Positions 1 to 35,850 of a stretch of 38,648 bases of DNA are shown in pieces. Source of the stretch: Acetobacteraceae bacterium (GTDB taxonomy: Bacteria; Pseudomonadota; Alphaproteobacteria; Acetobacterales; Acetobacteraceae); the NCBI GenBank assembly GCA_003137135.1, contig PLFB01000108.1:4459-43106 (forward strand), written 5' to 3'. The first letter of the stretch is position 1, and each line of letters opens with the position of its first letter. Position numbers and translations under genes: made by a program. The notes under the pieces are model-generated. The model ran no database searches, had not been told where the DNA came from, and was given only the letters and a program-made list of their open reading frames with translations.

Positions 1-141
1 AAAAACTTTTGCTCCCGCGGGCGTTTGGCGCGGGAGTGCCGTTAATCGCCGCCGACGGCGGCGATTAACGGCACTCCCGTCACAAGCGCCCACAGCTCGT
101 AAAAGTTTTTGCGCGCTTTTTTCAAAAAGCGCTGCTGGCTT
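1..141. repeat. Nested-palindrome intergenic element E1 (left end cut by window); core hairpin 31-79 is a perfect 23-bp stem with 3-nt loop
   Basis: AAAAACTTTT...CGGGAGTGCCGTTAATCGCCGCC-GAC-GGCGGCGATTAACGGCACTCCCG...AAAAGTTTTT followed by GCGCGCTTTTTTCAAAAAGCGC hairpin. Confidence 0.85.
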
Positions 142-204
142 TGCCTGCTCTTGCCTTTCCTTCCCTTATTGCTGATTTAGCTCCACGAGAAGCAGGAGCA
201 CCAA

Positions 205-2373
205 ATGGCCGAACCCAGAACCACCGAAGCCGGCTTGAGCGTCGCCACCGTCTTGCGCGATTTTGTGGACAATGAGGCGCTGCCCGGCACCGGCCTGGAT
301 GCCGCCGGCTTCTGGTCTGGCTTCGCCGCTCTGCTGGCAGATTTCGCGCCCCGCAACGCCGCGCTGCTGGCCAAGCGCGACGCGCTGCAGGCCAAAATCG
401 ATGAATGGCATCTGGCCCACAAGGGCAAGCCGCACGATTCTGACGCCTACGAAGGATTTTTGACGGAGATCGGCTATCTGCTGCCGGACCCGGCGGCCTT
501 CACCGTCGCCACCGCGAATGTGGACGACGAAATCGCCGTCATCCCCGGCCCGCAATTGGTGGTGCCGGTGAGCAACGCCCGCTACGCGCTGAACGCGGCC
601 AATGCGCGATGGGGCAGCTTTTACGACGCGCTGTACGGCACCGACGCGATTCCCGAAGCCGGCGGTGCGGAGCGCGGCAAGACCTACAACAAAATCCGCG
701 GCGCGGCGGTTGTCGCCCGCGGCCGGGCGTTTCTGGACGCCAGTTTTCCGCTCAGCGAGGGCAGCCACAAGGACGCCCAGGCCTATCAGGTGAAAGACGG
801 CCACCTCGCCGTCACCCTGCCGACCGGCGAAACCGGGCTGAAAACCGCCGAAAAATTCGCGGGTTACACCGGCGAGCCGGGCCGGCCGAAAAGCATCCTG
901 CTCAAAAACCATAATCTGCACGCTGAACTCGTCATCAACCCCGACAATCCCACCGGCAAGGACGACGCGGCCGGCGTGGCGGATATTCTGCTCGAATCCG
1001 CCATCAGCACCATCATGGACTGCGAGGACAGCGTCGCCGCGGTGGACGCCGCCGACAAGGTGGAGGTTTACCGCAACTGGCTCGGCCTGATGAATGCCAG
1101 CCTCTCCGCGCCGGTCGAAAAGGGCGGCAAGATGTTTGAGCGTAAACTGAACCCTGACCGCACCTACACCGCCCCCACCGGCGGCACGCTCACGCTGCAC
1201 GGCCGCTCGCTGATGCTGGTGCGCAATGTCGGCCACCATATGCTGACGGATGCGATACTCACCGCCGACGGCAAGGAAATTCCCGAAACCGTGATGGACG
1301 CGGTGCTGACCTCGCTGATCGCCATGCACGACTTGAAATCGTCCGGGCCGCTGAAAAATTCGTTGAAGGGCTCGGTCTATATTGTCAAACCGAAACTGCA
1401 CGGGCCGGAGGAAGTCGGCTTCGCCAACGAACTTTTTGGCGCCGTCGAGACTTTGCTTAAACTCCCCGCCTACACGCTGAAAATGGGCATCATGGATGAG
1501 GAGCGCCGCACCAGCGCGAACCTGAAGGCCTGCATCGCGGCGGCTAAAAACCGCGTCGTGTTCATCAATACCGGGTTTCTGGACCGTACCGGGGACGAGA
1601 TCCACACCTCCATCGAGGCCGGCGCCTTCATCCGCAAGGCGGAGATCAAAAACCAGCCCTGGATCAAGGCCTATGAGGATCGCAACGTCGATTTCGGGCT
1701 GGAATGCGGGCTGCAGGGCAAGGCGCAGATCGGCAAGGGCATGTGGGCGGCGCCCGACATGATGGCCGACATGCTCGAACAGAAAATCGCGCACCCCAAA
1801 GCCGGCGCCAACACCGCCTGGGTGCCGTCCCCCACCGCGGCCACGCTGCACGCCACCCACTACCACGCGGTGGACGTGCTGGCCCGCCAATCGGAGCTCA
1901 AATCCCGCCCGCCGGCGAAACTTTCGGACCTGCTGACCATCCCGCTGGCCCCCGCCACCAACTGGGCGCCGGACGCGGTGGCGCAGGAACTCGACAATAA
2001 CTGCCAGAGCATTCTGGGCTACGTGGTGCGCTGGATCGACCAGGGCGTGGGCTGCTCAAAAGTGCCGGACATTCACGATGTCGGCCTGATGGAAGACCGC
2101 GCCACTTTGCGCATTTCCTCGCAACACATCGCCAACTGGCTGCTGCACGGCGTGACCACCGAGGCGCAGGTGCTGGAAACGCTGAAGCGCATGGCGCTGG
2201 TGGTGGACCAGCAGAATGCCGGCGACCCGGCCTATTCGCCGATGGCGCCGGGCTATGACGGTCCCGCCTTCCAGGCGGCCTGCGACCTGATTTTTAAGGG
2301 CCGCGGCCAGCCCAACGGCTACACCGAGTTCATCCTCACCGCCCGCCGGCGGGAGGCAAAAGCCGCCCACTAA
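205..2373 (+). CDS. glcB: Malate synthase G
   Basis: 722 aa; family-typical sequence including [38 protein letters not shown] and [31 protein letters not shown] upstream. Confidence 0.97.
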
Positions 2374-2500: not shown

Positions 2501-2522
2501 CCTCGGAAGCGAAAATTATAGA

Positions 2523-2557: not shown

Positions 2558-4417
2558 TTATTCGTCCCTGTACCCCGCCACGCTATCCGCCACGCTATCG
2601 GCCACGTGCTCCTTCGTAATCACCCCCAAAATATCCTTCCCCCGCGGTACCGCGACGCCGGCGCGCACCACCACCGCCATCACCGCGTTCCTGGCCCAGA
2701 TGCGGCGGATCACGTCGAAGGCGATCGTCGTGTCCCGCACCATCACAAAACTCCGGCTCGCCAGTTCGCCCAGCGTCATCTGCCGTTCCGCGTCCGCCAG
2801 GCCGCGCCGCAGCGCCGTGTTCATGCGCAGCACGCCCGCAATCCGCCCGTCCGCCGTCACCACGATGTGCCGCATGCGCCCGGTTTCCTCCTCGGCGCTT
2901 AAAAACGCCTCGAACGTGGTTTCCGCCGGCAGCACACTCACCTCCCGGTTCATCACGTCCATCGCCCGGCGCACCAGGAACATATTGGCGTGCCGCGTCC
3001 GGGGGATGCCGTGGCCGCGCCCGACCAGCTTGATCGTATAGATGCTCTCGCGCGACAGCAGCCGGCGCACCCCTACTGCCACCGCGACCGCCACGATCAT
3101 CGGCATGACAATCCCGTAATCGCGCGTCATCTCGAAGATCATCACCACCGCCGTCATCACGGCGCCGGTCGCCCCGCCCACCATCGCCGCCATGCCCACC
3201 ATCGCGAAGGTCGGCACGTCGATCGGCAGCGGCATCTGCACCGCGCGCAGGATCGCGGCGAAGCTGCCGCCGATCGCCGCCCCCATGAATAGCGACGGCG
3301 AGAAAATCCCGCCCGAGGAGCCCGAGCCCAGGCTGGCCGACGTCGCAAACAGTTTGGCCGCGAACAGAAACACCAGAAAACCGGCCAGCGCCGGCAGGCT
3401 CAGTCCAAGCTGCCCGGTCAGAATCGCCTCGATCGTCGCGTACCCGACGCCTTCGACATAGTAATGCCCAAAAACCCGGAACAGCGCATAAATCAGCACC
3501 CCAACCATCAGCATCCCCACCGCATGGCGCAGATAGCGGTTCGGGATTCTCGCAAACGCCTCCTCGGCCGAATGCAGCCCCCGGATGAAACCGGCCGCCG
3601 CCACGCCGGTCAGCCCGCCCAGCACCGCGAACAGCAGCAGCGTCACCGCCGCGTAGGGGTCGGTGCCCAGCATCGGCAGCGGCGGCACGAAAAATGCCGG
3701 CTGGTTGCCAAAAAATGCCCGCCCCACGAACGTCGCCGCCCCGGTGGCCAGCGCCACCGGTAGAAACGACGTGGACCCCACCTCGGGCATCATCAGCTCG
3801 ATCGCGAACATCACCCCGCCGATCGGCGTGTTGAACGTCGCCGCGATCCCAGCACCCGCCCCCGCCGCCACCAGAATAATCCGCTGCCCCGCCGGCATCT
3901 TGATCAGCTGCCCCAGCGTGGAGCCCAGCGCCGAGCCGATCTGGATGATCGGCCCTTCCCGGCCGACTGCGGCGCCCGTGCCGATCGCGATGGCCGAGGC
4001 CAGCGATTTCACCACCGCCACCACCGGCCGGATCACGCCGCCTTTATAGAAAATGGCGTCCATCACCTCCGGCACCCCGTGCCCGCTGGCTTCCGGCGCG
4101 AAATTGACAACCAGAAAGGTCACCGCCAGCCCGCCGATCACCGGCACCAGAATGATCAGTGCCCCCCACGGGGATGGGCCGGTAAAATGGTTGGCGTCGT
4201 AATGCGCCGAAATCTGGCCCAGGAACGCGGCATTATGGATCAGCCCGATCAGCGCCCGGAACACCGCGGCGCCAATCCCCGTGCAGATCCCCAGCCCCAG
4301 CGCGATCAGCGACAGCCACACCAGGCTCAGTTCGGAATGCTTCTCGCCCGCGCCCTGGCTGGGTTCGAAACCCTCCTGCACGGCGGCGCCTTCCAAACCT
4401 TCATCACTGTTCACCAT
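2558..4417 (-). CDS. ClC-family chloride channel with C-terminal CBS-like region
   Basis: GSGSSGGIFSPSLFMGAAIG and GREGPIIQIGSALGS ClC motifs; ATG at 4417 with GGAGG SD preferred over the TTG-initiated 4459 ORF start. Confidence 0.92.
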   Translation of the reverse strand: MVNSDEGLEGAAVQEGFEPSQGAGEKHSELSLVWLSLIALGLGICTGIGAAVFRALIGLIHNAAFLGQISAHYDANHFTGPSPWGALIILVPVIGGLAVTFLVVNFAPEASGHGVPEVMDAIFYKGGVIRPVVAVVKSLASAIAIGTGAAVGREGPIIQIGSALGSTLGQLIKMPAGQRIILVAAGAGAGIAATFNTPIGGVMFAIELMMPEVGSTSFLPVALATGAATFVGRAFFGNQPAFFVPPLPMLGTDPYAAVTLLLFAVLGGLTGVAAAGFIRGLHSAEEAFARIPNRYLRHAVGMLMVGVLIYALFRVFGHYYVEGVGYATIEAILTGQLGLSLPALAGFLVFLFAAKLFATSASLGSGSSGGIFSPSLFMGAAIGGSFAAILRAVQMPLPIDVPTFAMVGMAAMVGGATGAVMTAVVMIFEMTRDYGIVMPMIVAVAVAVGVRRLLSRESIYTIKLVGRGHGIPRTRHANMFLVRRAMDVMNREVSVLPAETTFEAFLSAEEETGRMRHIVVTADGRIAGVLRMNTALRRGLADAERQMTLGELASRSFVMVRDTTIAFDVIRRIWARNAVMAVVVRAGVAVPRGKDILGVITKEHVADSVADSVAGYRDE

Positions 4418-4498
4418 ATCCCTCCTCACATGATAGACTTTTCTGCCCGTCTTTGCCAAAACACCGCCGGCAACCCGTCACTAGCAAAGGACAAGCGC

Positions 4499-5146
4499 AT
4501 GACCATCCAACTGGGCCAAATCGCCCCGGATTTCGAACAGGATTCCTCGGAAGGCAAAATCAGGCTGCACGAATACCTGGGCAATTCCTGGGGCGTCCTC
4601 TTCAGCCACCCGAAGGACTTTACTCCGGTCTGCACCACCGAACTCGCCGAAGTCGCGCGGCTGAAACCCGAATGGGACAAGCGCCACGTCAAACCCATCG
4701 GCCTCTCGGTCGATACCGGCGAGCGGCACCAAGGCTGGGCCGCGGATATCGAGGAAACCCAGGGCCAAAAACTCAATTTTCCGGTGATCGCGGACCACGA
4801 CAAAAAAGTCGCCACGCTCTACGGCATGATCCACCCGGAAGCCGACGCGGCCGTCACGGTCCGCACCGTCTTCATCATCGATGCCAATAAAAAGGTCCGG
4901 CTCAGCCTGACCTACCCGCCGTCCACCGGCCGTAATTTTTTGGAAATCCTGCGGGTCATCGACAGCCTGCAACTGACCGACAACCACAAGGTCGCCACGC
5001 CGGTGAACTGGAAAGACGGCGACGACGTCATCATCGTCCCCTCGCTCTCCGACGAAGACGCCAAAATCCGCTTCCCCGAGGGTTTTACAACGCTCAAGCC
5101 CTATCTGCGGGTGGTCAAACAGCCGAAATTGCCGCACACTGCGTAA
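4499..5146 (+). CDS. Peroxiredoxin (1-Cys/Prx6-like)
   Basis: MTIQLGQIAPDFEQDSSEGKIRLHEYLGNSWGVLFSHPKDFTPVCTTEL; internal start of ORF 4079..5146. Confidence 0.95.
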   Translation: MTIQLGQIAPDFEQDSSEGKIRLHEYLGNSWGVLFSHPKDFTPVCTTELAEVARLKPEWDKRHVKPIGLSVDTGERHQGWAADIEETQGQKLNFPVIADHDKKVATLYGMIHPEADAAVTVRTVFIIDANKKVRLSLTYPPSTGRNFLEILRVIDSLQLTDNHKVATPVNWKDGDDVIIVPSLSDEDAKIRFPEGFTTLKPYLRVVKQPKLPHTA

Positions 5147-5286
5147 GTAAGAAAGCACTTCTTTTTTAAAAAAAAGAAGCAAAAAACTTTTGATTCCCGT
5201 GGGTTGTGGCGTCTGCGTGCCACGGCCCCCCGTAATCAGAAGTTTTTTTGCTGCTTTTTTTACTAAAAAAAGAAGTCCTTACTTTC
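5147..5286. repeat. Nested-palindrome element E2
   Basis: GAAAGCACTTCTTTTTTaAAAAAAAGAAGCAAAAAACTTTTGATT...AATCAGAAGTTTTTTTG...AAAAAAAGAAGTCCTTACTTTC. Confidence 0.85.
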
Positions 5287-12776: not shown

Positions 12777-14294
12777 TCACCTGACGGCTTCGGTTTCGGC
12801 TTCCAGGCCCAGCATCTGCGCCAGACGGTCCAGGCGGCGGAGGACGGATTCGCCGGCGAAAACGCCATTGGATTCGCTCAGGCGCAGGATCAGGCGGCCG
12901 GGGGCGATGGTGAGGGACGTGCCGGCGAGCAGCTGCGGCGTGCCGGCGGAGAGTGTGTAGGCCAGGCGCAAAGCGGCGCCGAGCGTTTCGGAGCGGCGGG
13001 CGGCGTGCAGGTCCAGCAGGGAGCGCGCCGGGGAAAGGAAGGCGCTGTCGGGCTCGGCTTCGTAGCGCAGCGCCATGGTCAACGCCAAAAACGCGCGGGC
13101 GTGGTGGTCCAGGCCGATGCCGGGCTGGCGCAGGACGCGGAAAAACGCCTGCTCGGCGCGGTATTCCGGATGCTCGTGGCTGCCGATGTCGGAGAGCCAG
13201 CAGGCGGCCTCGCGCAGACGGCGCTGGGCGCCGGTCTCGGCGGGAAACAGCGGGTTGGTCCAGGTGATGAGGGCGGGCGGCAAAGCCGGGTCGCGCAGAA
13301 TGCCGCGGGTGAGGTCGCGGCCGGCGGCGAGCAGGGGGTCCTCGGCGCGGATCTCTTCGGGCATCATGCGGGCGAACCAGCCCTCGCGCAGTCCGTTGGC
13401 GGAAAACACGACGCGCGCCGCGGCGGTGGCACGCAGCAGGCGGCGCAGGATCAGCGCGGCGTAGGGCAAATCCTCGATGCGGCGGCGCGGCACGCCGGGC
13501 ATGCGCTCAATAAGCTTTCTGCCGGCCTCGCCGATCACGCCGGCCAGATCCCGCGCCTCCTCGCGGCCGATCGTGTAGTGGTGCACCATATTCAGCGGGT
13601 AACCGGTCTGCATGATGTGGATGCGCGCCAAAGCGCGGAAGGCGCCGCCGGAGAGGTACAGGTCCCGGCCGGCGCCCTCGGCGATGAACGGCGTTTGTTC
13701 GAGCGCCTCGGTGACGATGGTGCGGGCCTTGAGCAGGTCGCCGCCGGCGCGGTCGGCGAGGCGGATCACGCCGACCGGCAAAGTGGCGGCGTCGCCGATG
13801 CGGCCGGCGTCCAGCCGCACCAGTTCGAGCGAGCCGCCGCCGAGATCGGCCAGCACGCCGTCAGCGCCGGGAATGCCGCACAGCACGCCCTCGGCGGAGA
13901 GCTGGGCCTCGGCCTCGCCGGAGAGGACGTTGAAGGTCATGTCCGGCAGACGCTTTTGCAGGCGCTTGATGAATTCGGGGCCGTTTTCGGCGTCCCGCAC
14001 GGCGGAGGTGGCGAGGATTTCGCAAGCCCCGGCGCCCATGGCGCGGGTGATGGCGTCGTAGCGGCGCAATACGGTTTCGGCCTGCTGCATGGCGCCGCTG
14101 TCGAGCTGGCCGGTGCGGGTCATGCCCTTGGCCAGGCGCAGAACGGCTTTTTCGTTGAAAATCTGGACGGGGTTGCGGGCCTCGCCCTCGTAGATCACCA
14201 AGCGGACGGAATTGGAGCCGAGATCAACCACGGCGCGCCTGGTTGCGGCCAGGCGGGGGTGCCGGTCGTCAAGTTCCGAGGTGAATTGGTCCAT
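12777..14294 (-). CDS. Ppx/GppA phosphatase family protein (exopolyphosphatase)
   Basis: AVVDLGSNSVRLVIYEG, LATSAVRDAENG, VLADLGGGSLELV. Confidence 0.95.
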   Translation of the reverse strand: MDQFTSELDDRHPRLAATRRAVVDLGSNSVRLVIYEGEARNPVQIFNEKAVLRLAKGMTRTGQLDSGAMQQAETVLRRYDAITRAMGAGACEILATSAVRDAENGPEFIKRLQKRLPDMTFNVLSGEAEAQLSAEGVLCGIPGADGVLADLGGGSLELVRLDAGRIGDAATLPVGVIRLADRAGGDLLKARTIVTEALEQTPFIAEGAGRDLYLSGGAFRALARIHIMQTGYPLNMVHHYTIGREEARDLAGVIGEAGRKLIERMPGVPRRRIEDLPYAALILRRLLRATAAARVVFSANGLREGWFARMMPEEIRAEDPLLAAGRDLTRGILRDPALPPALITWTNPLFPAETGAQRRLREAACWLSDIGSHEHPEYRAEQAFFRVLRQPGIGLDHHARAFLALTMALRYEAEPDSAFLSPARSLLDLHAARRSETLGAALRLAYTLSAGTPQLLAGTSLTIAPGRLILRLSESNGVFAGESVLRRLDRLAQMLGLEAETEAVR

Positions 14295-14360
14295 AATTCT
14301 CTAGTTTCGCAGATTCGCGGGGCGGCGGACAGGCAAAGTATTGTGACGATAGGGCAGGCA

Positions 14361-18163: not shown

Positions 18164-18230
18164 GGGGAAGAGAGTGGCACCGGGAGCGGATTTGGCAAGG
18201 TGAGGTAGGGGGCGCGGGCCGAGGGCGAAA

Positions 18231-21249: not shown

Positions 21250-21858
21250 TTAGCTGGGCTTGCCGTGGCCGCGCAGCCCGGCGAACCAGTCCCGGATGAG
21301 GGCCCAGATGAAGGCGGCGGCGTTGAATTTTTGCTCCACCGGTGCGGCGGTCATGACCGGCGGCGGCGGCGCGTCCGCGGCGGCCCGGGCGAGTGCGGCC
21401 TGCACCTCCTGCGCCTTGATCAGCACATTCGCGAAAAAGATTTTTAGCAACTGATCGGTGGCGGCGTTCATCAGCCGCGAGCCGAAGGCGGCGACCTTGC
21501 CGGTGACGTTGACCACCGAAACGCCGGAAAGCTCGCAGGTATCGCCGCCGGTATCCTTCACCACCGCGTGCAAATCCAGCGAGGCGCCGGAGCCGCTGCC
21601 GGTATCCGAGCCCTTGCCGATGATGTGGATGCTGCGGGCCGTTTCATCTTGCGCGAGAACTTCCAACTCGCCCTTGAAGGAGACGGTTGCGGGGCCGAGT
21701 TTGACCGTGATCGCGCCTTTGTAATGCGTGGCGTCGATGCGCTCGGTGATTTTAGCGCCGGGCATGCAGGACGCCATGGTTTCGATATTTTCCACCAGCT
21801 TCCAACCCGCGCCGGCGGAGACCGGCAGCGCCAAGGATTTTTCCAGTTCGATTTTCAT
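21250..21858 (-). CDS. coxG: CO dehydrogenase subunit G (CoxG, SRPBCC)
   Basis: AWKLVENIETMASCMPGAKITERID...VKLGPATVSFKGE; ATGA overlap with coxL. Confidence 0.9.
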   Translation of the reverse strand: MKIELEKSLALPVSAGAGWKLVENIETMASCMPGAKITERIDATHYKGAITVKLGPATVSFKGELEVLAQDETARSIHIIGKGSDTGSGSGASLDLHAVVKDTGGDTCELSGVSVVNVTGKVAAFGSRLMNAATDQLLKIFFANVLIKAQEVQAALARAAADAPPPPVMTAAPVEQKFNAAAFIWALIRDWFAGLRGHGKPS

Positions 21859-24263
21859 GCGGTCAGGCCAAGGGATTTCGCATGTTGCCAGACTCTGAAA
21901 CTGTTGTAGGGCATGTTGAAATGCGTGGTGCCGAGATGCGCGAAGGCATCAACCATCGCGCTGGAGAAGCAGGGGATGGAGCCGACATGCGGCGATTCCG
22001 CGACACCCTTGGCGCCGATCGGGTGGTGCGGGCTGGGTGTGACGGTGAAATCGGTTTCCCAGTGCGGGGTTTCCTGGGAGGTGGGCAAAAAATAGTCCAT
22101 CAGCGTGCCGCCGAGCACGTTGCCCTGCTCGTCATACGGCAGTTCCTGGCCCATCGCGACGGCAAAGCCTTCGGTGAGGCCGCCATGAATCTGGCCCTCG
22201 ATGATCATCGGGTTGATCCGCGTGCCGCAGTCATCCAGCGCGTAGAAGCGGCGCACTTTGGTCTCGCCGGTCTTTTTGGTTATGTCCAGCACGCACACAT
22301 ACGCGCCAAACGGGAAGGTGAAGTTCGGCGGGTCGTAATAATCGACCGCCTCCAGCCCCATCTCCATCCCTTCCGGCACGTTGTTATAGGCGGCCCAGGC
22401 GATTTCCTTCATCGTCTTGCCCCGTGCCGGATCGCCTTTGACCTTGAACTGATCGAGATCGAATTCGAGATCATCGGGTGCGACCTCCAGCAGATGCGCC
22501 GCGATTTTTCTCGCCTTTTCACGAATTTTGCGCGCGGCGCGGGCGGTGGCGGCACCCGCCACCGGGGTCGAGCGCGAGCCATAGGTTCCCAGTCCGTAGG
22601 GGGCGGTGGACGTATCGCCCTCCTCCACGGCGATTTGCGAAGCCGCAATGCCCGCCTCGCTCGCGATAATCTGCGCGTAGGTGGTCTGGTGCCCCTGGCC
22701 CTGGCTGATGCTGCCCATCCGCGCGATCGCCGAGCCGTCCGGATGGACGCGGATTTCGCAGCTATCGAACATGCCGATGCCCAGAATGTCGCAGTTTTTT
22801 GACGGCCCCGCGCCGACGATTTCGGTGAAGGTGGTGATGCCGATGCCCATCAGCGTCGGCGCGTTCGGGTCGGCGCGCAACGCGGCCTGCTCGGCGCGCA
22901 GCGCCTTGTAATCGACCGCCTCAAGAACCCTTTCGAGCGCCGGCGCGTAATTGCCGGAATCAAATTCCAGCCCGAGCGGCGAGAGGTATGGGAACTGCTC
23001 CGCCTGGATGAAGTTGCGGCGGCGGATTTCCGCCTTGTCGATATCCAGCCTCTGCGCCAGCACGTCGATCATGCGCTCGATCAGATAAACCGCCTCGGTC
23101 ACCCGGAACGAGCACCGGTAAGCCACGCCGCCCGGAAATTTGTTGGTGTAAACGCCATCAACCGAGACATGCGCGTTCGCGATGTCATAGGAACCGGTGC
23201 ATACGTGGAACATCCCGGCCGGCCACTTCGTCGGGTCCGCGCAGGCGTCGAACGCGCCGTGATCGGCGGTGACATTGACGCGCAGCGCGCGGATCTTGCC
23301 GTTCTTGTCCGCCGCCAGTTCGCCGGTCATCCAGTAGTCGCGCGCGAACGCCGTCGTGGTAAGGTTTTCGCTGCGCGACTCGATCCATTTCACCGGCCGG
23401 CCCAGCACGATGGAGGCCACGATCGCGCAGACATAGCCCGGATACACGCCCACCTTGTTGCCAAACCCGCCGCCAATGTCGGGCGAAATGATCCGGATTT
23501 TTGATTCCGGAATGCTGGAGAGCAGCCCGACAACCGTGCGCACCACGTGCGGCGCCTGGCTGGTGATCCACACCGTCAAATCCCCGCGGATTGCATCATA
23601 ATTCGCGACCGACCCGCACGTCTCCAGCGGGCAGGGATGCACGCGCGGATACAGCATGTCCTGCTTTACCGTCACCTCGGCATTCGCGAAGGCGCGGTCG
23701 GTCTTGTCCTTATCGCCGATCTGCCAGTTAAAAATATGATTGTGGTGTTTCCGGGCACCGTGCGCGCCGACGTTTTTACCATCCAGATCCGGCCGGATCA
23801 CCGGCGCATCCGGCGCCAGCGCCTTGAACGGATCGACCACCGCCGGCAACTCCTCATATTCCACTTCCACCAGATCCGCCGCGTCCGCCGCGGTGTAGCG
23901 GTCGTCGGCGACCACGAACGCGACTTCCTGATTCTGAAAACTCACTCGCCCATCGGCCAATACCGCCTGCACGTCGCCCGCCAGCGTGGGCATCCAATGC
24001 AGCTTTAGCGGCTTCAGATCCTCCGCCGTCAGCACGGCGTGCACACCGGGATGCGCTTTCGCCTTGGATGTATCAATCGAAACGATTTTGGCGTGCGCGT
24101 AGGGGCTGCGCACCATGACCCCGGAGAGCATTCCTGGCAGCTTGATGTCATCGACGTAGTTGCCCTTGCCCTGGATGAAGCGCGGGTCCTCACGCCGCTT
24201 GCGCGAGCAGCCGATGCCTTCGAGTTTTTCGAGCCTGGCGTGGGTTTCGATGTTGGTGTCCAT
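21855..24263 (-). CDS. coxL: Aerobic CO dehydrogenase large subunit, form I
   Basis: Mo-hydroxylase family; active-site loop GGVAYRCSFRVTEAVY (AYxCSFR, form I) at 23103-23123; start MDTNIETHARLE at 24263. Confidence 0.95.
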   Translation of the reverse strand: MDTNIETHARLEKLEGIGCSRKRREDPRFIQGKGNYVDDIKLPGMLSGVMVRSPYAHAKIVSIDTSKAKAHPGVHAVLTAEDLKPLKLHWMPTLAGDVQAVLADGRVSFQNQEVAFVVADDRYTAADAADLVEVEYEELPAVVDPFKALAPDAPVIRPDLDGKNVGAHGARKHHNHIFNWQIGDKDKTDRAFANAEVTVKQDMLYPRVHPCPLETCGSVANYDAIRGDLTVWITSQAPHVVRTVVGLLSSIPESKIRIISPDIGGGFGNKVGVYPGYVCAIVASIVLGRPVKWIESRSENLTTTAFARDYWMTGELAADKNGKIRALRVNVTADHGAFDACADPTKWPAGMFHVCTGSYDIANAHVSVDGVYTNKFPGGVAYRCSFRVTEAVYLIERMIDVLAQRLDIDKAEIRRRNFIQAEQFPYLSPLGLEFDSGNYAPALERVLEAVDYKALRAEQAALRADPNAPTLMGIGITTFTEIVGAGPSKNCDILGIGMFDSCEIRVHPDGSAIARMGSISQGQGHQTTYAQIIASEAGIAASQIAVEEGDTSTAPYGLGTYGSRSTPVAGAATARAARKIREKARKIAAHLLEVAPDDLEFDLDQFKVKGDPARGKTMKEIAWAAYNNVPEGMEMGLEAVDYYDPPNFTFPFGAYVCVLDITKKTGETKVRRFYALDDCGTRINPMIIEGQIHGGLTEGFAVAMGQELPYDEQGNVLGGTLMDYFLPTSQETPHWETDFTVTPSPHHPIGAKGVAESPHVGSIPCFSSAMVDAFAHLGTTHFNMPYNSFRVWQHAKSLGLTA

Positions 24264-24281
24264 GGGCGTTTGTTCCTCAAA

Positions 24282-24418
24282 AGAAAGAAGTTCTTTTTTG
24301 AAAAAAAGAACCAAAAAACTTTTTATTAATTTGGGCCGCTGGCGGTGAGACCAGCACGGTATAAGTTAGCAAAAAGTTTTTTGCTTCTTTTTTTCAAAAA
24401 AGAAGTGCTTGCTTACTT
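24282..24418. repeat. Nested-palindrome element E5, between coxS and coxL
   Basis: AAGAAAGAAGTTCTTTTTTgAAAAAAAGAACCAAAAAACTTTTTATTAATT...AGCAAAAAGTTTTTTGCTTCTTTTTTTCAAAAAAGAAGTGCTTGCTTAC. Confidence 0.88.
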
Positions 24419-24420
24419 TT

Positions 24421-24930
24421 CTACTCCGCCAGCACCGGATGCGACGTCGCCACCGTCTCCCCCCGCATTTTCGCGGCGGCGTACTGGATCGACTTGACAA
24501 TGTTCTGGTAGCCCGTGCAGCGGCACAGATTGCCCGCCATCCAGAACCGGATGTCTGCCTCCGTCGGGCTCGGATTTTCCTGCAGCAGCCGGTACGCGCG
24601 GGTAATCATCCCGGGCGTACAGAAGCCGCATTGCAGGCCGTGTTCCTGGGAAAAGCCTTCCTGCAGCGGGTGCAGCGCGCCGGCTTTGGCAAAACCTTCG
24701 ATGGTCAGCATCTCCGCACCGTCGCATTGCACGGTCAGCACCGTGCAGGCTTTTACCGAAAGCCCATCCAGATCGACGGTGCAGGCGCCGCAATGCGAGG
24801 TGTCGCAGCCGATATGCGGGCCGGTGGTGGCGAGTTTTTCGCGCAGCGTGTGGATCAGCAATTCCCGCGGCTCTACCAGCACATCGACCGGCGATCCGTT
24901 AAGCGTAAAACTAACGACCGTTTTGGCCAT
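24421..24930 (-). CDS. coxS: CO dehydrogenase small [2Fe-2S] subunit
   Basis: [16 protein letters not shown] and CGFCTPGMI...[10 protein letters not shown] [2Fe-2S] motifs. Confidence 0.95.
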
Positions 24931-26096: not shown

Positions 26097-26840
26097 ATGC
26101 CCAGCCGCAACGCGAGTGTCGCCATCGTCGGCGCCGGAGACTTCATCGGCGCCGCCATAGCCCGCCGCTTCGCCGCCGAGGGTTTTCAGGTGCATGGCGG
26201 CCGGCGGCAGGGCGAGAAACTTGCCCCGCTCGCCGCGGAAATCGCCGAAGCCGGCGGCATGTTTCATGGTCACACGTTGGATGCGCGCGAAGCAAGCCAG
26301 GTGGCCGCCTTCCTGGCGGCGGCCGATGAGTCTGGGCCGCTGGAAGCCTGCATTTTCAACGTCGGCGCCAATGTCAACTTTCCGGTGCTTGAGACCACCG
26401 AGCGCGTGTTCCGCAAGGTTTGGGAAATGGCCTGTCTCGCCGGTTTTTTGACCGGGCGGGAAGCGGCGCGCCGCATGCTCGCGCATGGCGGCGGCTCGAT
26501 CTTCTTTACCGGCGCCACCGCCTCGATGCGCGGCGGCAAGGGCTACGCGGCGTTCGCCGCCGCGAAGGCCGGCCTGCGCGCCGTGGCGCAGTCGATGGCG
26601 CGCGAACTGGCGCCGCGAAACATTCACGTCGCGCATCTGGTGATCGACGCCGGCGTGGACACCGCCTGGGTGCGCGAGCGCATCGCCGCCAGCCGGGGCG
26701 CCGAGGCGGCGGCCGGCCTGGCCCCCGACACGCTGATGAACCCGGCCTCGATCGCGGAGACCTATTGGCAGCTGCACCGCCAGCCGCGCGACGCCTGGAC
26801 CCACGAACTCGACTTGCGCCCCTACGGCGAGACCTGGTGA
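26097..26840 (+). CDS. SDR-family oxidoreductase
   Basis: NASVAIVGAGDFIGAAIARRFAAEGFQV nucleotide-binding start; YAAFAAAKAGLRA. Confidence 0.88.
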   Translation: MPSRNASVAIVGAGDFIGAAIARRFAAEGFQVHGGRRQGEKLAPLAAEIAEAGGMFHGHTLDAREASQVAAFLAAADESGPLEACIFNVGANVNFPVLETTERVFRKVWEMACLAGFLTGREAARRMLAHGGGSIFFTGATASMRGGKGYAAFAAAKAGLRAVAQSMARELAPRNIHVAHLVIDAGVDTAWVRERIAASRGAEAAAGLAPDTLMNPASIAETYWQLHRQPRDAWTHELDLRPYGETW

Positions 26841-26848
26841 GGCGCGCC

Positions 26849-27499
26849 ATGGAAAACCCGGTTTTTTACTTCGACTTCGGCAGCCCCAACGCCTATCTGG
26901 CGTGCCGCGTGCTGCCCGGCATCGAGGCCCGCACGGGAGCGCGCTTCCGGCACGTGCCGGTGCTGCTCGGCGGGTTGTTCAAGCTCACCGGCAATCAGTC
27001 GCCGATCACCGCCTATGCCGGCATCCCCCACAAGCTGGCCTATCAGCATCTCGAAATCAGGCGCTTCGTCGCGCGATACGGGCTGACCGCTTTCCGCATG
27101 AACCCGCATTTTCCGGTGAACACGCTGATGCTGATGCGCGGCGCGGTGGCCGCCGAGGCCGAAAATTGCGCCGCCGCGTACAACGAGGCGATGTTCCACT
27201 TCATGTGGGAGGAACCACGCAAGCTGGACGATCCGGCGGTGCTCCAGCAGACCCTGATCGATGCCGGCCTGCCGGCCGAGCGTTTGCTGGCGCGCGCGCA
27301 GGAGCAGGAGATCAAGGACCGCCTGGCCGCCAACACGCGCGAAGCCTATGACCACGGCGCCTTCGGCATCCCGAGTTTTCTGGTTGGAAAAGAACTCTAT
27401 TTCGGGAAGGACCGATTGCAAGACATCGAGGAAGAACTCAGGGCTAAAACGGCCCAGCCGGCCGAACGTTCGGCCGCCGGGCCCGTCGGCAGCGAGTAA
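26849..27499 (+). CDS. 2-hydroxychromene-2-carboxylate isomerase / DsbA-like kappa-GST family
   Basis: VFYFDFGSPNAYLACRVLPGIEARTGARFRHVPVLLGGLFK ... GAFGIPSFLVGKELYFGKDRL. Confidence 0.92.
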   Translation: MENPVFYFDFGSPNAYLACRVLPGIEARTGARFRHVPVLLGGLFKLTGNQSPITAYAGIPHKLAYQHLEIRRFVARYGLTAFRMNPHFPVNTLMLMRGAVAAEAENCAAAYNEAMFHFMWEEPRKLDDPAVLQQTLIDAGLPAERLLARAQEQEIKDRLAANTREAYDHGAFGIPSFLVGKELYFGKDRLQDIEEELRAKTAQPAERSAAGPVGSE

Positions 27500-27656
27500 G
27501 AAAGCAGTTACTTTTTTTGAAAAAAAAGTAACCAAAAAAACTTTTGATCCCCCGGCCTTTGAGCGGCCATACTGTGGCCGCTCAAAGGCCGGGGAATAAA
27601 AAGTTTTTTGCGGACCGCGGCGGCGGCCGGCTTTTTTTCAAAAAAGCGACCGCTTG
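27500..27656. repeat. Nested-palindrome element E6 (between convergent genes)
   Basis: GTTAC-type left hairpin, perfect core CCCCGGCCTTTGAGCGGCCA-TACTG-TGGCCGCTCAAAGGCCGGGG, GCGGTCGC-type right hairpin. Confidence 0.92.
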
Positions 27657-27661: not shown

Positions 27662-28468
27662 CTAAACCGGCTTCGACATCGACTTAACCATAGACGTCAC
27701 TACGCGCCTAGGCGCGAAGCGCACGCTTTGGGCCATCAGCCAGTTCATCGCGCCAGGGATGACGACGCGTTCGCCATTTTGCATCGCGCGATAGCCGATG
27801 GCGGCTACCGATTCCGCGGTGGGGAGTTTTTTGCCTTTCACCAGCCCCGAGTTGTGCATGTTGGCGCGATCCTGAAAGCCCGATGCCGTCGGTCCGGGGC
27901 AGAGCGCGGTGACGGTGACGCCGGTGCCTTCCAGCTCCGCGGCGATCGCCTCGGAAAAGCTCAGCACGAAAGCCTTTGTGGCGTAGTACACCGCCATATA
28001 AGGGCCGGGCTGGAACGCGGCGGTCGAGGCGGTGTTGAGGATTTTGCCCTTGTTCGCGAGGAGATCAGGTAAAAACAGTTTTGAGAGCACCACCACCGCC
28101 GTCATGTTGAGCTGCATCGAGGCGAGTTCGGTGGCGAGATCGCTGTTGGCAAATTCTCCGAAAGCGGCGTAGCCGGCGTTGTTGGCGAGCGCCGAAATCG
28201 CCAGCCCGCGGCTCCGGACATCTGCCACAAGCTGCCTCGCGCCGGCTTCGCTTTCAAGATCGGCGCCAATCACGGTTGCCGTTAGGCCATGGCGCCGCGT
28301 CAGTTCGGCGGCCAGCGATTCCATCGGCGCCACCGACCGGGCGGCGAGGATGACGTGGTAGCCGCCGGCGGCGAATTCTTCGGCCAGCGCCTTGCCGATG
28401 CCGGAGGAGGCGCCGGTGATGAGCGCGATTTTTTGACTGTTCACGGATTGCGACATGGGATTCTCCAT
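27662..28468 (-). CDS. SDR-family NAD(P)-dependent oxidoreductase
   Basis: IALITGASSGIGKALAEEFAAGGYHVILAAR; YMAVYYATKAFVLSFSEAIAAEL. Confidence 0.95.
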   Translation of the reverse strand: MENPMSQSVNSQKIALITGASSGIGKALAEEFAAGGYHVILAARSVAPMESLAAELTRRHGLTATVIGADLESEAGARQLVADVRSRGLAISALANNAGYAAFGEFANSDLATELASMQLNMTAVVVLSKLFLPDLLANKGKILNTASTAAFQPGPYMAVYYATKAFVLSFSEAIAAELEGTGVTVTALCPGPTASGFQDRANMHNSGLVKGKKLPTAESVAAIGYRAMQNGERVVIPGAMNWLMAQSVRFAPRRVVTSMVKSMSKPV

Positions 28469-30058: not shown

Positions 30059-32044
30059 ATGCCCGACGCCCATCTCGCCGAACCGCCGCCCGCCGCCGCG
30101 ACCCGGCCTTACCCGCTGGACCCGCTATCGCTCGAGGAAATCGGCGCCGCGACCGCGCTAGTGACAGCGGAGAAAAACCTCGGCCCGGCGCATCGCTTCG
30201 CGATGGTGCGGCTGGAAGAGCCGGGCAAGGCCGAGATCAAGGCCGGCGGCGCGCTGCCGCGGCTGGCGTTTCTGCTGGTGCTGGACCGCGGCAGCGGCGA
30301 TACGTTTGAGGGCATCGTCGATCTGACCGCGGGCGTGGTTTCGTCCTGGAAGCGGCTGCCGTTCGATGCGGCGCCGTATGGCCAGGCGCCGGTAATGATC
30401 GAGGAATTTTTCCGCTGCGAGGCGGTGGTGAAGGCCGATGCCGGCTGGCGCGCGGCGATGCACCGGCGCGGGCTGACGGATGAGGATATCGAGCGAGTCC
30501 AGGTGGACCCGTTTTCCTCCGGATTTTTCAATAACGAGTTTGAACGTGGCCATCGCGTGGTGCGCGCCGTCAGCTATTACCGCGAAAATCTGAAGGATAA
30601 CGGCTACGCGCACCCGATCGAGGGCGTGGTGGCGGTGGTCGATCTGGTGGCGGACAAGGTGGTCGATCTGGTGGACGAGGCCGAGATCGTGCCGATTCCG
30701 AAAAAGAAGCGCAATTATGATTTGGCGAGCCAAGGGCCGTTGCGGACGGATGTAAAACCGCTGGACATCGTGCAGCCGCAGGGGCCGAGTTTTTCGGTCG
30801 ATGGCTGGAAAGTCGCTTGGCAGAACTGGCATTTCCGGGTCGGTTTCACGCCGCGCGAGGGGCTGGTGCTGTATGAGCTCGGCTACCAGGATGGTGAAAA
30901 GCTGCGTCCCATCATTTATCGCGCGAGCGTGACGGAGATGGTGGTGCCGTATGCCGACCCGACGGCGAATCATTACTGGAAAACCGCGTTCGACGCCGGC
31001 GAATACGGGCTGGGAAAACTCGCCAACGCGCTGGAACTGGGCTGCGACTGCCTCGGCAACATCCACTATTTCGACATCCCGTTCGCCGATGATGCTGGCG
31101 CGCCGTTCGTGATGAAAAACGCCGTGTGCATGCATGAGGAGGATTACGGCATCCTGTGGAAGCACTACGAATTCCGCAACGAGACCTTTGAGGTCCGGCG
31201 CTCGCGGCGACTGGTGATCAGCTTTTTCGCGACCGTCGGGAATTATGATTACGGTTTCTATTGGTATCTGTACCAGGACGGCACGATCCAACTGGAAGCG
31301 AAACTTTCGGGCATCATCCAGACGGCGGCGGTGGCGCCCGGCAAACCCTATCCGTGGGGCGGCATGGTGGACGAAGGCCTCGGCGGCCCGACGCACCAGC
31401 ATTTTTTCAATGCGCGGCTGCACATGGATCTGGACGGCGGCGGCAATACCGTCACGGAGCACGAATTTTTGCCCCGGCCCTGGGGCAAGGACAATCCGTA
31501 TGGCAACGTGTTCGACACCACCAGCAAAACGCTGGCGCGCGAGTTGGACGCGGCGCGGATCGCCGACGGCGTGACGGGACGGTACTGGAAGATCAGCAAC
31601 CCGAATGCGGCGAACAGCGTGGGCAAACCGACAGGCTACAAAATGAGCTTTCCGCCCAGCCCGCTGATGCTGGCGCAGGAAGGCTCCTCCGTCCGTCGGC
31701 GCGGCGGCTTCGCCACCAAACATGTCTGGGTCACGCAGTATGACCCGGCGGAGAAATACGCGAGCGGCGATTACCCCAACCTGAACGCCGGCGGCGGCGG
31801 GCTGCCGGCCTATATTCAGGCGAATCGCAACATCGAGAACGAGGACATCGTGGTCTGGCACTCCTTCGGCCACACCCATGTCTGCAAGCCGGAGGATTTT
31901 CCCGTGATGCCGGTGGAATATGCCGGCTTCATGCTCAAGCCCAACGGCTTTTTTGCCGGCAACGTGGCGATGGACCTGCCGGCCGGGCGCAACGAGCATA
32001 GCGTGGATCATCGCGCGGCCACCGGCGGCGGATGCTGTGCCTGA
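30059..32044 (+). CDS. Copper-containing (primary) amine oxidase
   Basis: TVGNYDYGFYWYLYQDGTIQLEAK (TPQ-type NYD motif), EHEFLPRPWGKDNPYGN, WHSFGHTHVCKPEDFPVMPVEYAGFML. Confidence 0.95.
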   Translation: MPDAHLAEPPPAAATRPYPLDPLSLEEIGAATALVTAEKNLGPAHRFAMVRLEEPGKAEIKAGGALPRLAFLLVLDRGSGDTFEGIVDLTAGVVSSWKRLPFDAAPYGQAPVMIEEFFRCEAVVKADAGWRAAMHRRGLTDEDIERVQVDPFSSGFFNNEFERGHRVVRAVSYYRENLKDNGYAHPIEGVVAVVDLVADKVVDLVDEAEIVPIPKKKRNYDLASQGPLRTDVKPLDIVQPQGPSFSVDGWKVAWQNWHFRVGFTPREGLVLYELGYQDGEKLRPIIYRASVTEMVVPYADPTANHYWKTAFDAGEYGLGKLANALELGCDCLGNIHYFDIPFADDAGAPFVMKNAVCMHEEDYGILWKHYEFRNETFEVRRSRRLVISFFATVGNYDYGFYWYLYQDGTIQLEAKLSGIIQTAAVAPGKPYPWGGMVDEGLGGPTHQHFFNARLHMDLDGGGNTVTEHEFLPRPWGKDNPYGNVFDTTSKTLARELDAARIADGVTGRYWKISNPNAANSVGKPTGYKMSFPPSPLMLAQEGSSVRRRGGFATKHVWVTQYDPAEKYASGDYPNLNAGGGGLPAYIQANRNIENEDIVVWHSFGHTHVCKPEDFPVMPVEYAGFMLKPNGFFAGNVAMDLPAGRNEHSVDHRAATGGGCCA

Positions 32045-32045
32045 C

Positions 32046-32585
32046 ATGGTGATCGAAAAGCCGATCGCGCTGCTGGAGGAGGTTCTGGCGCCCTGGCGAG
32101 AGCGCATCGGCGCGGATTTTGATGGCTACAAAAACCATGTCAGCCGCATGCTGAATTTCTGCTTCGCGCTGCGCGCGTGCGGCGATGAGGAGCGCCGCAA
32201 GCTGATCATCGCCGGCGCGTTTCACGATATCGGCATCTGGTCGGACGGTACGGTGGACTATCTGCCGCCCTCCATCGCGCAGGCCAAACTCTATTTGACG
32301 CAACACGGCCTGACGGATTGGATTCTTGAGATCGAGCTGATCATCGACCTGCATCACAAGCTGCGGCGTTACCGTGGGGATGCCTCTCCGCTCGTCGAGA
32401 TTTTCCGCAAGGCCGATCTGGCGGATTTCTCGCTGGGGGTGGTGACAGGCGGCGTGCCGGCCGCCACCGTGCGGGCGGCGAAGGCGGCGTACCCGAATGC
32501 CGGATTCCACAAGCGGCTGGCGCAACTGGCCGGCGGCTGGTTCGCCGGGCATCCATTTAGCCCGCCGCCGTTTATGAAGTGGTGA
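32046..32585 (+). CDS. HD-domain protein
   Basis: NHVSRMLNFCFAL, IIAGAFHDIGIWSDGTVDYLPPSI HD motif; 1-nt gap after the amine oxidase stop. Confidence 0.85.
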   Translation: MVIEKPIALLEEVLAPWRERIGADFDGYKNHVSRMLNFCFALRACGDEERRKLIIAGAFHDIGIWSDGTVDYLPPSIAQAKLYLTQHGLTDWILEIELIIDLHHKLRRYRGDASPLVEIFRKADLADFSLGVVTGGVPAATVRAAKAAYPNAGFHKRLAQLAGGWFAGHPFSPPPFMKW

Positions 32586-32733
32586 AGGAAGCGGTCGCTT
32601 TTTTGAAAAAAAGCTCCGCAAAAAACTTTTATTAATCAAGGCCTTTGAGCGGCCATACTTTGGCCCCTCAAACGCCGTGGGAATCAGAAGTTTTTTGCGG
32701 AGCTTTTTTTCAAAAAAGCGACCTCTTCCGCCC
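32586..32733. repeat. Nested-palindrome element E7
   Basis: GCGGTCGCTTTTTTgAAAAAAAGC...CAAAAAACTTTTATTAATC..CCTTTGAGCGGCCATACTTTGGCCCCTCAAA..AGAAGTTTTTTG...TTTTTTTCAAAAAAGCGACC. Confidence 0.87.
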
Positions 32734-32836: not shown

Positions 32837-35812
32837 ATGGGGAAGACCATTACGGGCGAGCTGACCAAAACCGTTACCGTGGGGGTGGGGGGGTATATCA
32901 GCCCCTTGACCGTCAGTTCGTCGGGCTCGGTCGAGCCCACCGCGGCGGGTTCGGATGCCATTATCCTGCCGGCAGCCGCCGCCGGCGGGGTCATCGTCAA
33001 TGACGGCTTCATCATCGCGGCGGAGACCAGTTTCGGCGTGTACTCGGTCGGCGTGGCGCTGAACGCCGCCGGCACGCTGACCAATACCGAGATCATCCAG
33101 GGCGGCGCCGGCGGGTATCACGAAATAAGTCCGGGCTACGGCGATGGCGAAAACGGCGGCGCCGGCGTGACCGGCGTGGCGGGCGTGACGGTGAATAACG
33201 CCACCGGGCTCATCGAGGGCGGCGCGGGCAGCTATGGCGACCTGCGCGCCGGCGCGGGCGGCGACGGCGTGATTCTGTCCGGCGCCGGCGCGACGCTGAC
33301 CAACACCGACGTCAACGGCTTCATCGTCGGCATCACCGGCGGCGCCGGCGCCAGCGGAGGCGATTACAGCAACCACGGCGGCACCGGCGTGGCACTCCTC
33401 GCCGGCGCCTATGGCAGCAACGCCTCGGTCGTCAGCGGCGGCGCGGGCGGAACCCTGCGTGACTACGGCAGCGGCGCCGGCGGCGGCGGCGACGGCGTTG
33501 ATTTGACCGGCGCCAAGATGAAAAACCTGGAAGCGGGGCGCATCATCGGCGGCGCCGGCGGCAATGCGGACAGCTTTGCCAAAAATCCCGGCGGCGGCGG
33601 CGACGGTGTTTTGGTGCAAAGCGTGAACGGCGCGACGTCCTTCCTGGCCAATTACGGCACCATCGCCGGCGGCGCCGGCGGGTCGATCATCGACTCCGCG
33701 TATGGCGGCGACGCGGCGAATGGCGGCGGGGGCGTTTCGCTGTCCGGCAGCGGCGCGGGTTTCGTCAATTATGGCACCGTGACCGGCGGCGCGGGCGGGA
33801 ACACCAGCCTGCCGCAATATGCTGGAACCAATTTCTACGCCGGCCGAGGCGGCTTTGGCGTTCTTTTAACAAGCGGCGCCACCGGCCAGAGTTACGGCGC
33901 CATCACGGGCGGCAGCGGCGGCGGCGGCGGCAGCGGCGGCGTCAGCGGCGCCTATGGCGGAATCGCCGTGGCACTGGAGACGGGCGCGTTCTTCAACTAC
34001 GGCACGCTGACCGGCGGCGCCGGCGGGGTCAGCGCCGGAGGAGTTACGGCGCCGGGCGGCAGCGGCGCGTATGATGTTGCCGGCTATTTTTACAACAACG
34101 GCGGAAAGATTTTTGGCGGCAAGGGCGCGTTTGGCCTCGTTGCGACCAGTAACAACGGTCAGTTCAAGGGGACGGCCGGCGTCGTCAATTCGGGCACCAT
34201 CACCGGCGGCAACATCAGCGTCGGCCTGGTCACCGTTTATGCCGTGGATGTCAGAAATACGGGCGAGATATGGGGCGGTTACGGCGCCGGCCAGGGCGCA
34301 AACCTGATTGGCGGCGCGGGGGGCGCCCCCACCCTGCTCAACCTGGGTATCATCTCCGGCGGCAACGCCTATGGCGCCGCGGCGGTGCCGCAGGCCGGCG
34401 GCGTGGGTGTGGTCGTGCAGGCGGCCACGCTGCTCAACAACGGCACCATCACCGGCGGGGCCGGCAGCTTTGGCGAAGGCAGCACACAGTACACCGGCCA
34501 GGGCGGCGACGGCGTGGTGATCTCGAACGGCGTGGTGATCGACGCCGGCACCATCGCGGCCGGCGCGCCCGGCCAGGGCCCGGCCGGCTACGCCGTCACG
34601 TTTCAGGCCGCCGGCACGCTGGCGCTGCTGACCGGCGCGCGGATCATCGGCGAGGTCATGGGCAACGCGGCGGATGCGGATGTGCTGGAATTCGCCGGCG
34701 CCGGCACGCAGGCCGGCATCGGCACGCAGTTCATCGACATCGACGACATCAGTTTCGTCTCCGGCGCGGACTGGACCATCGCGGGCAATGCAGCGGGGCT
34801 GACCACCGCCCAGCAGATCAGCGGGTTTGCCGCCGGTGATGCCATCGTGCTGGATGGTTTTACCAGCACCGGCATGCCGGCGCTGGCGGGCGGCGTCCTC
34901 ACGCTGGATGATGCCGGCAGCAACGCCGCAATGACGTTCGCGACCCCGCTTTCGGGCGACCTGCTGATCACCGACGGCGGCGGCAACACCACGATTGCGA
35001 TGGCGGCCGTCACCTCCGGCGTCACGCTCGGCGCGACGGTGGACGAGATCGTGCTCCCCGGCGGCACCGCCAGCAAGCTGACCGTGGATCTGGGATCGGA
35101 ACTGACCGTGGCCGATGGCGGCAAACTCGCCAGCGTCGCGGTGCAAGGGGTCGTGTCCGTGTTATCGGGCGGCACCGCCACCGATGTCTCGGTGGCGAAG
35201 GGCGGCGACCTGGAAGTGACCGCCGGCAAGGCCGACGACATCACCATCGCCGCCGGCGGCGCGGCGTATTTCAACGGCGGCGTGGCGAGCAACACCACGC
35301 TGACGGGCGGCCTGATCGAACTGCTGGATGGCGCCAAGCTGAGCGGGAAATTCGATTTCAAGGGCAGCGGCGGCGTTCTATTGATCGAGCAAACGCAGTT
35401 GCCGACGCTGGTCATTTCCGGCTTCGCCGCGGGCGATGCCATCTACCTGGCCGATGCCGCGGCGTCGGGCAAGGTGAAAGTCACCGCCGACGGCGAGCTG
35501 ACGATTTCCGCCGGCGGCAAGAGCTACAAGCTCGACATCGCCGGCGCCAAAAAAGGCTCGACCGACTACGTGTTCTCCGACCATACGCTGACCGAGAAAC
35601 CCGCGAAAATGGCGTTCGCGCGTCCGGTGGCGAGCGCCGCGCCGGCCCCGGCCGCGCTGCCGGAACTGGTCGCCGCGGGCGGATTCCAGGCGATGGCGGC
35701 GCCGACAATGAGCCCGATCAGCGCCGCAACCTCCGCGTATGGCGGTTTCATGTTTGAACCGTTGCAGGTGCCGAATGGCGGGATTCAGACGATGGTGACG
35801 TTGCAGACGTGA
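32837..35812 (+). CDS. Large Gly-rich repeat, beta-helix/AIDA-like strand-loop-strand protein
   Basis: 991 aa; recurring NYGTITGGAGG / GDGVxLxxGA units, C-terminal ADGGKLASVAVQGVVSVLSGGTATDVSV; SD AAAGGA. Confidence 0.85.
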   Translation: MGKTITGELTKTVTVGVGGYISPLTVSSSGSVEPTAAGSDAIILPAAAAGGVIVNDGFIIAAETSFGVYSVGVALNAAGTLTNTEIIQGGAGGYHEISPGYGDGENGGAGVTGVAGVTVNNATGLIEGGAGSYGDLRAGAGGDGVILSGAGATLTNTDVNGFIVGITGGAGASGGDYSNHGGTGVALLAGAYGSNASVVSGGAGGTLRDYGSGAGGGGDGVDLTGAKMKNLEAGRIIGGAGGNADSFAKNPGGGGDGVLVQSVNGATSFLANYGTIAGGAGGSIIDSAYGGDAANGGGGVSLSGSGAGFVNYGTVTGGAGGNTSLPQYAGTNFYAGRGGFGVLLTSGATGQSYGAITGGSGGGGGSGGVSGAYGGIAVALETGAFFNYGTLTGGAGGVSAGGVTAPGGSGAYDVAGYFYNNGGKIFGGKGAFGLVATSNNGQFKGTAGVVNSGTITGGNISVGLVTVYAVDVRNTGEIWGGYGAGQGANLIGGAGGAPTLLNLGIISGGNAYGAAAVPQAGGVGVVVQAATLLNNGTITGGAGSFGEGSTQYTGQGGDGVVISNGVVIDAGTIAAGAPGQGPAGYAVTFQAAGTLALLTGARIIGEVMGNAADADVLEFAGAGTQAGIGTQFIDIDDISFVSGADWTIAGNAAGLTTAQQISGFAAGDAIVLDGFTSTGMPALAGGVLTLDDAGSNAAMTFATPLSGDLLITDGGGNTTIAMAAVTSGVTLGATVDEIVLPGGTASKLTVDLGSELTVADGGKLASVAVQGVVSVLSGGTATDVSVAKGGDLEVTAGKADDITIAAGGAAYFNGGVASNTTLTGGLIELLDGAKLSGKFDFKGSGGVLLIEQTQLPTLVISGFAAGDAIYLADAAASGKVKVTADGELTISAGGKSYKLDIAGAKKGSTDYVFSDHTLTEKPAKMAFARPVASAAPAPAALPELVAAGGFQAMAAPTMSPISAATSAYGGFMFEPLQVPNGGIQTMVTLQT

Positions 35813-35814
35813 AA

Positions 35815-35850
35815 GGAAAGCAAGCCGTTACTTTTTTGAAAAAAAGACGC
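35815..35850. repeat. Half element of the nested-palindrome family
   Basis: AAGGAAAGCAAGCCGTTACTTTTTTgAAAAAAAGACGC; left outer hairpin only. Confidence 0.65.

Follow-up and report, generated by a model that had tools for sequence, protein, structure and literature searches.

The window analyzed here is a 38,648-nt stretch of DNA from the genome of an Acidocella species (~65% GC, 4.2 Mb, 83.8% complete). It carries a recurring three-hairpin element, which a first-pass annotation had placed at nine sites (seven full or near-full copies and two partial ones), and direct reading finds the element at all nine. With R1, a covariance model built on the half-element whose E values are rough, the copies reported at 1-141 (right half), 5147-5286, 14361-14534, 18231-18376, 24282-24418, 27500-27656, and 32586-32733 and the partial copy at 35815-35850 were found again at E values of 0.006 or below. 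The partial copy at 2523-2557 was confirmed by eye, and in the right arm of the 27.5-kb copy R1 matches the hairpin only. The features are listed below; feet are the paired bases on which the outer hairpins stand.

L016 4426-4500 (contig C66 from ~4426), upstream of the window: left arm of element 1
1-143, no strand: element 1, right three quarters; class I core, right foot GCGC (from sequence; R1 101-143, minus strand, 42.2 bits)
205-2373, plus strand: malate synthase G gene, downstream of element 1 (Pfam)
2523-2557, no strand: solo hybrid hairpin GCGC-T8-C-A6-G-TAAC with ends AAGCA and TGCTT (from sequence)
5144-5286, no strand: element 2; feet CTTC and CTTC-like (R1 5147-5191, plus strand, 63.1 bits; 5239-5286, minus strand, 38.7 bits)
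14358-14537, no strand: element 3; class I core (R1 14492-14537, minus strand, 65.1 bits)
18227-18380, no strand: element 4 (R1 18335-18380, minus strand, 63.4 bits)
24279-24420, no strand: element 5; class III core (R1 both halves, 64.8 and 62.9 bits)
27497-27656, no strand: element 6; class II core, extra GC insert in the right arm (R1 27497-27544, 52.9 bits)
32584-32732, no strand: element 7; class II core, both feet GGTCGC (R1 both halves, 63.3 and 55.3 bits)
35815-35850, plus strand: partial copy, solo left arm with foot GTTAC (from sequence; R1 35831-35846, 21.2 bits)

A 1-Cys peroxiredoxin gene (4430-5146, plus strand) ends in TAA (5144-5146), where element 2 begins, and a pstB-like ABC gene follows (from 5348, plus strand); at this locus, several relatives have a different, unrelated hairpin, and others have no element. 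Element 3 adjoins the TAA stop of tldD (14535-15971, minus strand), with ppx/gppA (12777-14294, minus strand) next (Pfam), and stands on foot GTTAC at the tldD side and GCGC at the opposite end. An xdhC gene (18369-19202, minus strand) has its TAG stop inside the AAGN array of element 4, and the start of ctaA/COX15 follows (17099-18163, minus strand; Pfam). Element 5 lies between the genes for the [2Fe-2S] subunit (24421-24930, minus strand) and the molybdopterin subunit (21855-24263, minus strand) of a xanthine-dehydrogenase-type enzyme (Pfam), and thus probably inside an operon. Element 6 fills the gap between convergent genes for a DsbA-type protein (26765-27499, plus strand) and a short-chain dehydrogenase (27662-28468, minus strand; Pfam). 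Element 7 begins at the stop of the gene at 32037-32585 (plus strand), ahead of the gene at 32837-35812 (plus strand), and the solo left arm sits 2 nt past the stop of the latter. The genes at 32837-35812 and 35949-38648 are large and stand in tandem, are 70 to 83% alike in 300-nt blocks, and are rich in GGAGG-type glycine repeats; Pfam gave no match to either.

The element is one family of homologous dispersed repeats

The first-pass annotation had proposed a genome-wide count of further copies, and copies proved plentiful. There are 678 exact instances of the outer palindrome CTTTTTTNNAAAAAAG across the 4.2 Mb of the genome versus one of a reversed control, and shuffled sequence yielded no outer hairpins of the element type. 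R1 found 144 half-elements in 534 kb of the genome's own sequence, or ~1,100 genome-wide by extrapolation. These counts are lower bounds, as the short-read assembly breaks at the element palindromes and leaves gaps inside element cores; NN scaffold joins lie within elements at L018 6476, L031 2979, L041 751, and L016 4440. At gathering scores, Rfam matched only a tRNA in the window and gave no match to the sister form described below; its subthreshold matches are generic long hairpins.

Each of the 48 intact copies has a match of 60 nt or more among the others, with a median identity of 85.5% over 141 nt, and from this common sequence we take the copies to have been dispersed by copying. The three-hairpin repeat is thus one family of homologous, noncoding, dispersed elements of ~100 to 200 bp. 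The copies could instead be ordinary native terminators, alike by constraint and not by descent, and their terminator-like core and 3' location would suit this. We regard that explanation as highly improbable, given the identity among copies, a copy number that differs sharply among genus-mates, and syntenic sites that are cleanly empty (see below).

Modular anatomy

The element reads (AAGN)n, outer hairpin, CAAAAAACTTTT, variable core palindrome, AAAAGTTTTTTG, outer hairpin, and (NCTT)n. The ends differ from the fixed GAAAGCA and TGCTTTC given in the first-pass annotation: they are mutually inverted AAGN and NCTT arrays of variable length, mostly of two or three units, in which N is free. The arrays do not pair with each other at N beyond chance (20 of 96 versus 20.8 expected).

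An outer hairpin is typically C-T6-G-A7-G on a paired foot, and some outer arms hold an extra nested hairpin. Foot types are discrete (GTTA/TAAC, GCG/CGC, CTT/AAG, GTT/AAC, and GGTCG/CTCCG), and the core palindromes fall into about four classes. Feet and cores are discrete modules that mix, the foot type tracking the core class loosely and recombining with it. The left and right feet of one element usually differ. A rule that the two outer hairpins must differ was set aside: the window genome shows a weak bias only, part of the foot extraction was faulty, and the difference seen in other genera follows from an element with fixed unlike ends. In many copies with like feet, the minimum-energy fold is one long hairpin and not three.

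It had been noted from the window that the GC bases of the outer hairpins vary while staying paired, and compensatory changes across the family bear this out. In alignment A1, columns 10 and 31 pair as C-G in 31 of the 57 distinct sequences and as G-C in another 24, and the foot covariation score is 0.146, versus 0.035 for shuffled and at most 0.020 for slid alignments. The A/T stem never varies and so gives no evidence for or against pairing.

Reduced copies also occur, among them a coreless two-hairpin form (L057 9221-9325) and single-hairpin copies such as the one at 2523-2557, which follows tRNA-Val (2426-2500) and adjoins the stop codon of a CLC channel gene (2558-4417, minus strand; Pfam). 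With GCGC as its left foot and TAAC as its right, this hairpin looks as if loss of all that lay between had fused two outer hairpins. Such hybrid and coreless forms suggest deletion between modules. A different palindromic repeat, GTCATTGCGAGC...GCAATCC, interrupts the core of an element at L052 ~8329; this repeat is found downstream of tldD in L083 as well and looks like a separate REP-type family.

Docking at stop codons

Gene context was counted over 766 kb (~18% of the genome) with a simple, home-made codon-usage gene caller that called 702 genes. An element lies within 230 nt downstream of the stop in 183 of the 664 genes examined (28%), and a single family of repeats may thus have remodeled 3' ends across a genome within one genus. 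Half-elements cluster at gene 3' ends, in agreement with the 3'-untranslated-region location suggested earlier. The distance from stop to foot there is tight, with a median of 12 nt and peaks at 7/8, 11/12, and 15/16, a 4-nt phase that matches the AAGN units; at gene 5' ends it scatters widely around a median of 74 nt. Frequent joints are T|AAG at TAA stops and TG|AAG at TGA stops. The phasing of the first unit is partly built in, since the stop codon supplies bases of its AAG, and the positions one and two units outward are unaffected by this. This 4-nt-phased docking at stop codons is a point that the first-pass annotation missed, and the same docking and spacing are seen in named relatives from other genera of the Acetobacterales. 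Palindromes fall inside gene calls in only 15 of 162 cases, though 88% of the DNA is coding. DNA uptake sequences are frequent also inside genes, and we rejected that identity for the element on this count.

Elements occupy 31 of 82 convergent gene pairs (38%), 98 of 471 tandem pairs (21%), and 6 of 89 divergent pairs (7%). The convergent rate is close to the expectation for two independent stops at ~21% each; intact copies are in excess between convergent genes (Fisher p = 0.003). This excess would suit a role at the DNA level, in which the elements bind gyrase or nucleoid proteins and relieve supercoiling at gene ends, as do the gyrase-binding BIMEs of Escherichia coli, and so would the A-tract-rich, perfect palindromes and the ability of the sister form to fold as a closed four-way junction. 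Nucleotide-scale, 4-nt-phased spacing from the stop is not expected of a supercoiling role, however, and we consider such a role improbable.

Distribution among relatives

Within the genus, exact matches number in the hundreds in the window genome and from 0 to ~50 in other genomes, and in an order-wide sample they occur patchily, in 59 of 397 genomes. R1 gave at least 150 matches in each of several other genera, 149 in G042, 93 in Acidocella facilis, 57 in G012, and 31 in G020; there were at most 4 in G005, G008, G024, and G053 and none in G009. This last sister species has no palindrome in 1.13 Mb. A comparison of insertion sites in relatives, which had also been proposed, found all 11 syntenic element loci empty in G009, the intergenic region often being just 0 to 45 bp. 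Between tldD and ppx, four relatives have a short, element-free gap, and G042 has a differently composed element after the same stop. The family is one that multiplied within the Acidocella lineage of the window genome, docked at gene 3' ends, in most cases inside the stop codon or immediately behind it.

In plasmid and phage collections, matches were confined to two plasmids of one Pseudoroseomonas species and short, chance-like matches. Four IMG/VR viral contigs (L275, L276, L277, and L278) carry copies, and these may be prophage or misassigned host DNA. Matches in Clostridia/Ruminococcus metagenome-assembled genomes were disregarded, as they probably arose by chance in DNA rich in A and T.

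An inside-out form in Acidocella facilis

A. facilis ATCC 35904 (G043) is a named type strain congeneric with the window genome. At its tldD stop we found a form that the first-pass annotation missed, an inside-out cloverleaf that reads AAAAGTTTTTGGGG, hairpin, core, hairpin, CCCCAAAAACTTTT. It is built of the modules of the linear form, but its flanking pair faces outward. The end sequence of this form occurs 101 times in A. facilis, 23 times in G006, and 19 times in G020, and the window genome has a single instance; loci in A. facilis include L323 2938-3074, L344, L349, L350, and L356, among others. Its abundance in this strain makes bench study possible.

The predicted fold of this form is a closed cloverleaf (-95.7 kcal/mol; z = -14.5), and 15 to 16 of 22 paired sister copies fold as exactly three hairpins within a terminal stem. 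RNAalifold on 17 sister copies recovered the stem that closes the cloverleaf, the two hairpins beside the core, and a core fragment, with 7 pairs changed on both sides, a rough count because the alignment was sequence based. Most of the paired sister copies lie between convergent genes, with both ends a few nucleotides from both stop codons. The two forms occur at the same tldD stop in different species, which suggests that gene ends are reused as sites.

Comparison with known repeat families

We found no description of the family in open-access texts. The CIRs are the CcrM-associated intergenic repeats of Caulobacter and Brucella. They resemble the element in being alphaproteobacterial and in an RNA model whose two halves each fold into a long stem-loop of their own; CIRs expose GANTC, however, which occurs in only 7 of 48 element copies. 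Lichenicola cladoniae presumably lies near the group of the window organism. This alphaproteobacterium (65.5% GC) is credited with 1,369 REPs by RepRanger (PMC12306157), and these REPs may belong to the element family.

The element resembles REP/BIME sequences in its hundreds of extragenic palindromes, mosaic makeup, location at gene 3' ends, and presumed role at RNA 3' ends. REPs have one palindrome of 20 to 40 bp with a GTAG or CGTC tag (PMC3733652), whereas the element has three palindromes per unit, no such tag, and no RAYT, and docks at stop codons. CGTC repeats are described as missing in Acetobacteraceae (PMC3733652). Of the 48 intact copies, 3 have GTAG close to the left foot and none has CGTC. 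No RAYT (Y1_Tnp, PF01797) was found in the window genome, at 83.8% completeness, or in several copy-rich genomes, and one each was found in element-free G009 and near-free G008. With neither a Y1 transposase nor a tag, mobilization as a RAYT-dependent REP was rejected.

YPAL/RU-2 of Yersinia is reviewed in PMC2229807 as a mobile palindromic repeat of ~168 bp that has empty and filled sites, lies next to dyad symmetry, and is linked to upstream genes, all of which recall the element. YPAL makes target duplications of 3 to 26 bp, whereas none was detected for the element, and the account of YPAL consulted mentions neither a three-hairpin layout nor AAGN ends (PMC2229807). In the same review, the bacterial MITEs ERIC, Correia/NEMIS, and RUP are likewise short, dispersed intergenic repeats with terminal inverted repeats, and ERIC affects mRNA stability, as we propose for the element; unlike the element, they have TA ends and make target duplications (PMC2229807). 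We file the element with none of the RAYT-linked REPs, target-duplicating MITEs, or CIRs, as it fails their tested defining features. By behavior, REP/BIME, YPAL, and ERIC are nearest, and the element belongs to the set of dispersed, structured 3'-end repeats.

How the element may move

The elements could be nonautonomous, MITE-like transposons mobilized in trans by a transposase whose target includes stop codons, with any effect on RNA a by-product that aids survival. The dispersal and copy-number burst, the inverted terminal arrays, and a shift of stop usage at insertions to TAA (40 of 101 element-joined stops versus 189 of 664 genes) all favor this. No enzyme was found, however; the ends vary in length, the T6/A6 tracts and paired feet are kept in other genera, and flanks match no longer than in shuffled pairs, a result that old, decayed target duplications could also give. 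We therefore think such a transposon rather unlikely. The MITE-like character first proposed thus holds for dispersal and terminal inverted repeats, while the absence of a target-site duplication and an enzyme leaves a classical MITE unsupported. Two other sources of mobility were rejected: reverse transcriptase (RVT_1) does not track copy number, and genes flanked by left and right halves gave no autonomous copy, being a PAS histidine kinase gene, queuosine-pathway genes together with one carboxyl-transferase gene, and an uncharacterized 176-aa open reading frame.

Nucleotide-scale docking at stops with no transposase signature is unusual and testable. It is conceivable, if doubtful, that the family represents a new element class, mobile or copied, with translation stop codons as its target. 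In such a process, the AAG ends would restore the stop codon on joining after T, TA, or TG, and insertion would leave no target duplication; as the element is a linear trio in one Acidocella species and an inside-out cloverleaf in another, targeting may take place on folded single strands or via mRNA. If true, stop-codon targeting would be a new mechanism.

Proposed function at mRNA 3' ends

We think that the element, as a member of a dispersed REP/MITE-like family, probably works at mRNA 3' ends, terminating transcription in both directions, perhaps in part, and stabilizing the message. The mRNA copy would begin with an unpaired purine spacer of (AAGN)n, ~8 to 12 nt long, and an A/U-topped hairpin, followed by the core hairpin between A6 and U6 tracts, which is terminator-like on both strands, and then by the second A/U-topped hairpin. 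The first-pass annotation had likewise seen the core as terminator-like between A/T tracts, and this is what the family shows: a run of 5 to 7 T residues follows the core in 86 of 88 strands, and the core folds below -10 kcal/mol in 79 of 86.

The spacer and first hairpin would keep the core clear of the terminating ribosome. In one E. coli system, an intrinsic terminator was found to be fully efficient only when it lay more than 27 nt from the stop codon (PMC4824070), and in the element the spacer and first hairpin place the start of the core ~35 nt from the stop, by sequence. The element would then be a self-spaced terminator, and the family would offer a natural library of candidate self-spaced, bidirectional terminators.

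Elements are no rarer in tight, operon-like same-strand pairs (8 of 49) than in wider pairs (3 of 17), all small numbers. Their presence in operon-like pairs, together with that of element 5 between subunit genes of one enzyme, argues against strong termination. The single long hairpin predicted for many copies with like feet also speaks against the proposed three-hairpin function. Termination and mRNA protection are both inferred here, and a partial terminator plus mRNA stabilizer, as for REPs, fits best: the core would terminate in both directions, possibly in part, and the hairpins would shield the upstream mRNA from 3'-to-5' decay. Retention of the T6/A6 tracts and paired feet across genera suggests constraint on the element.
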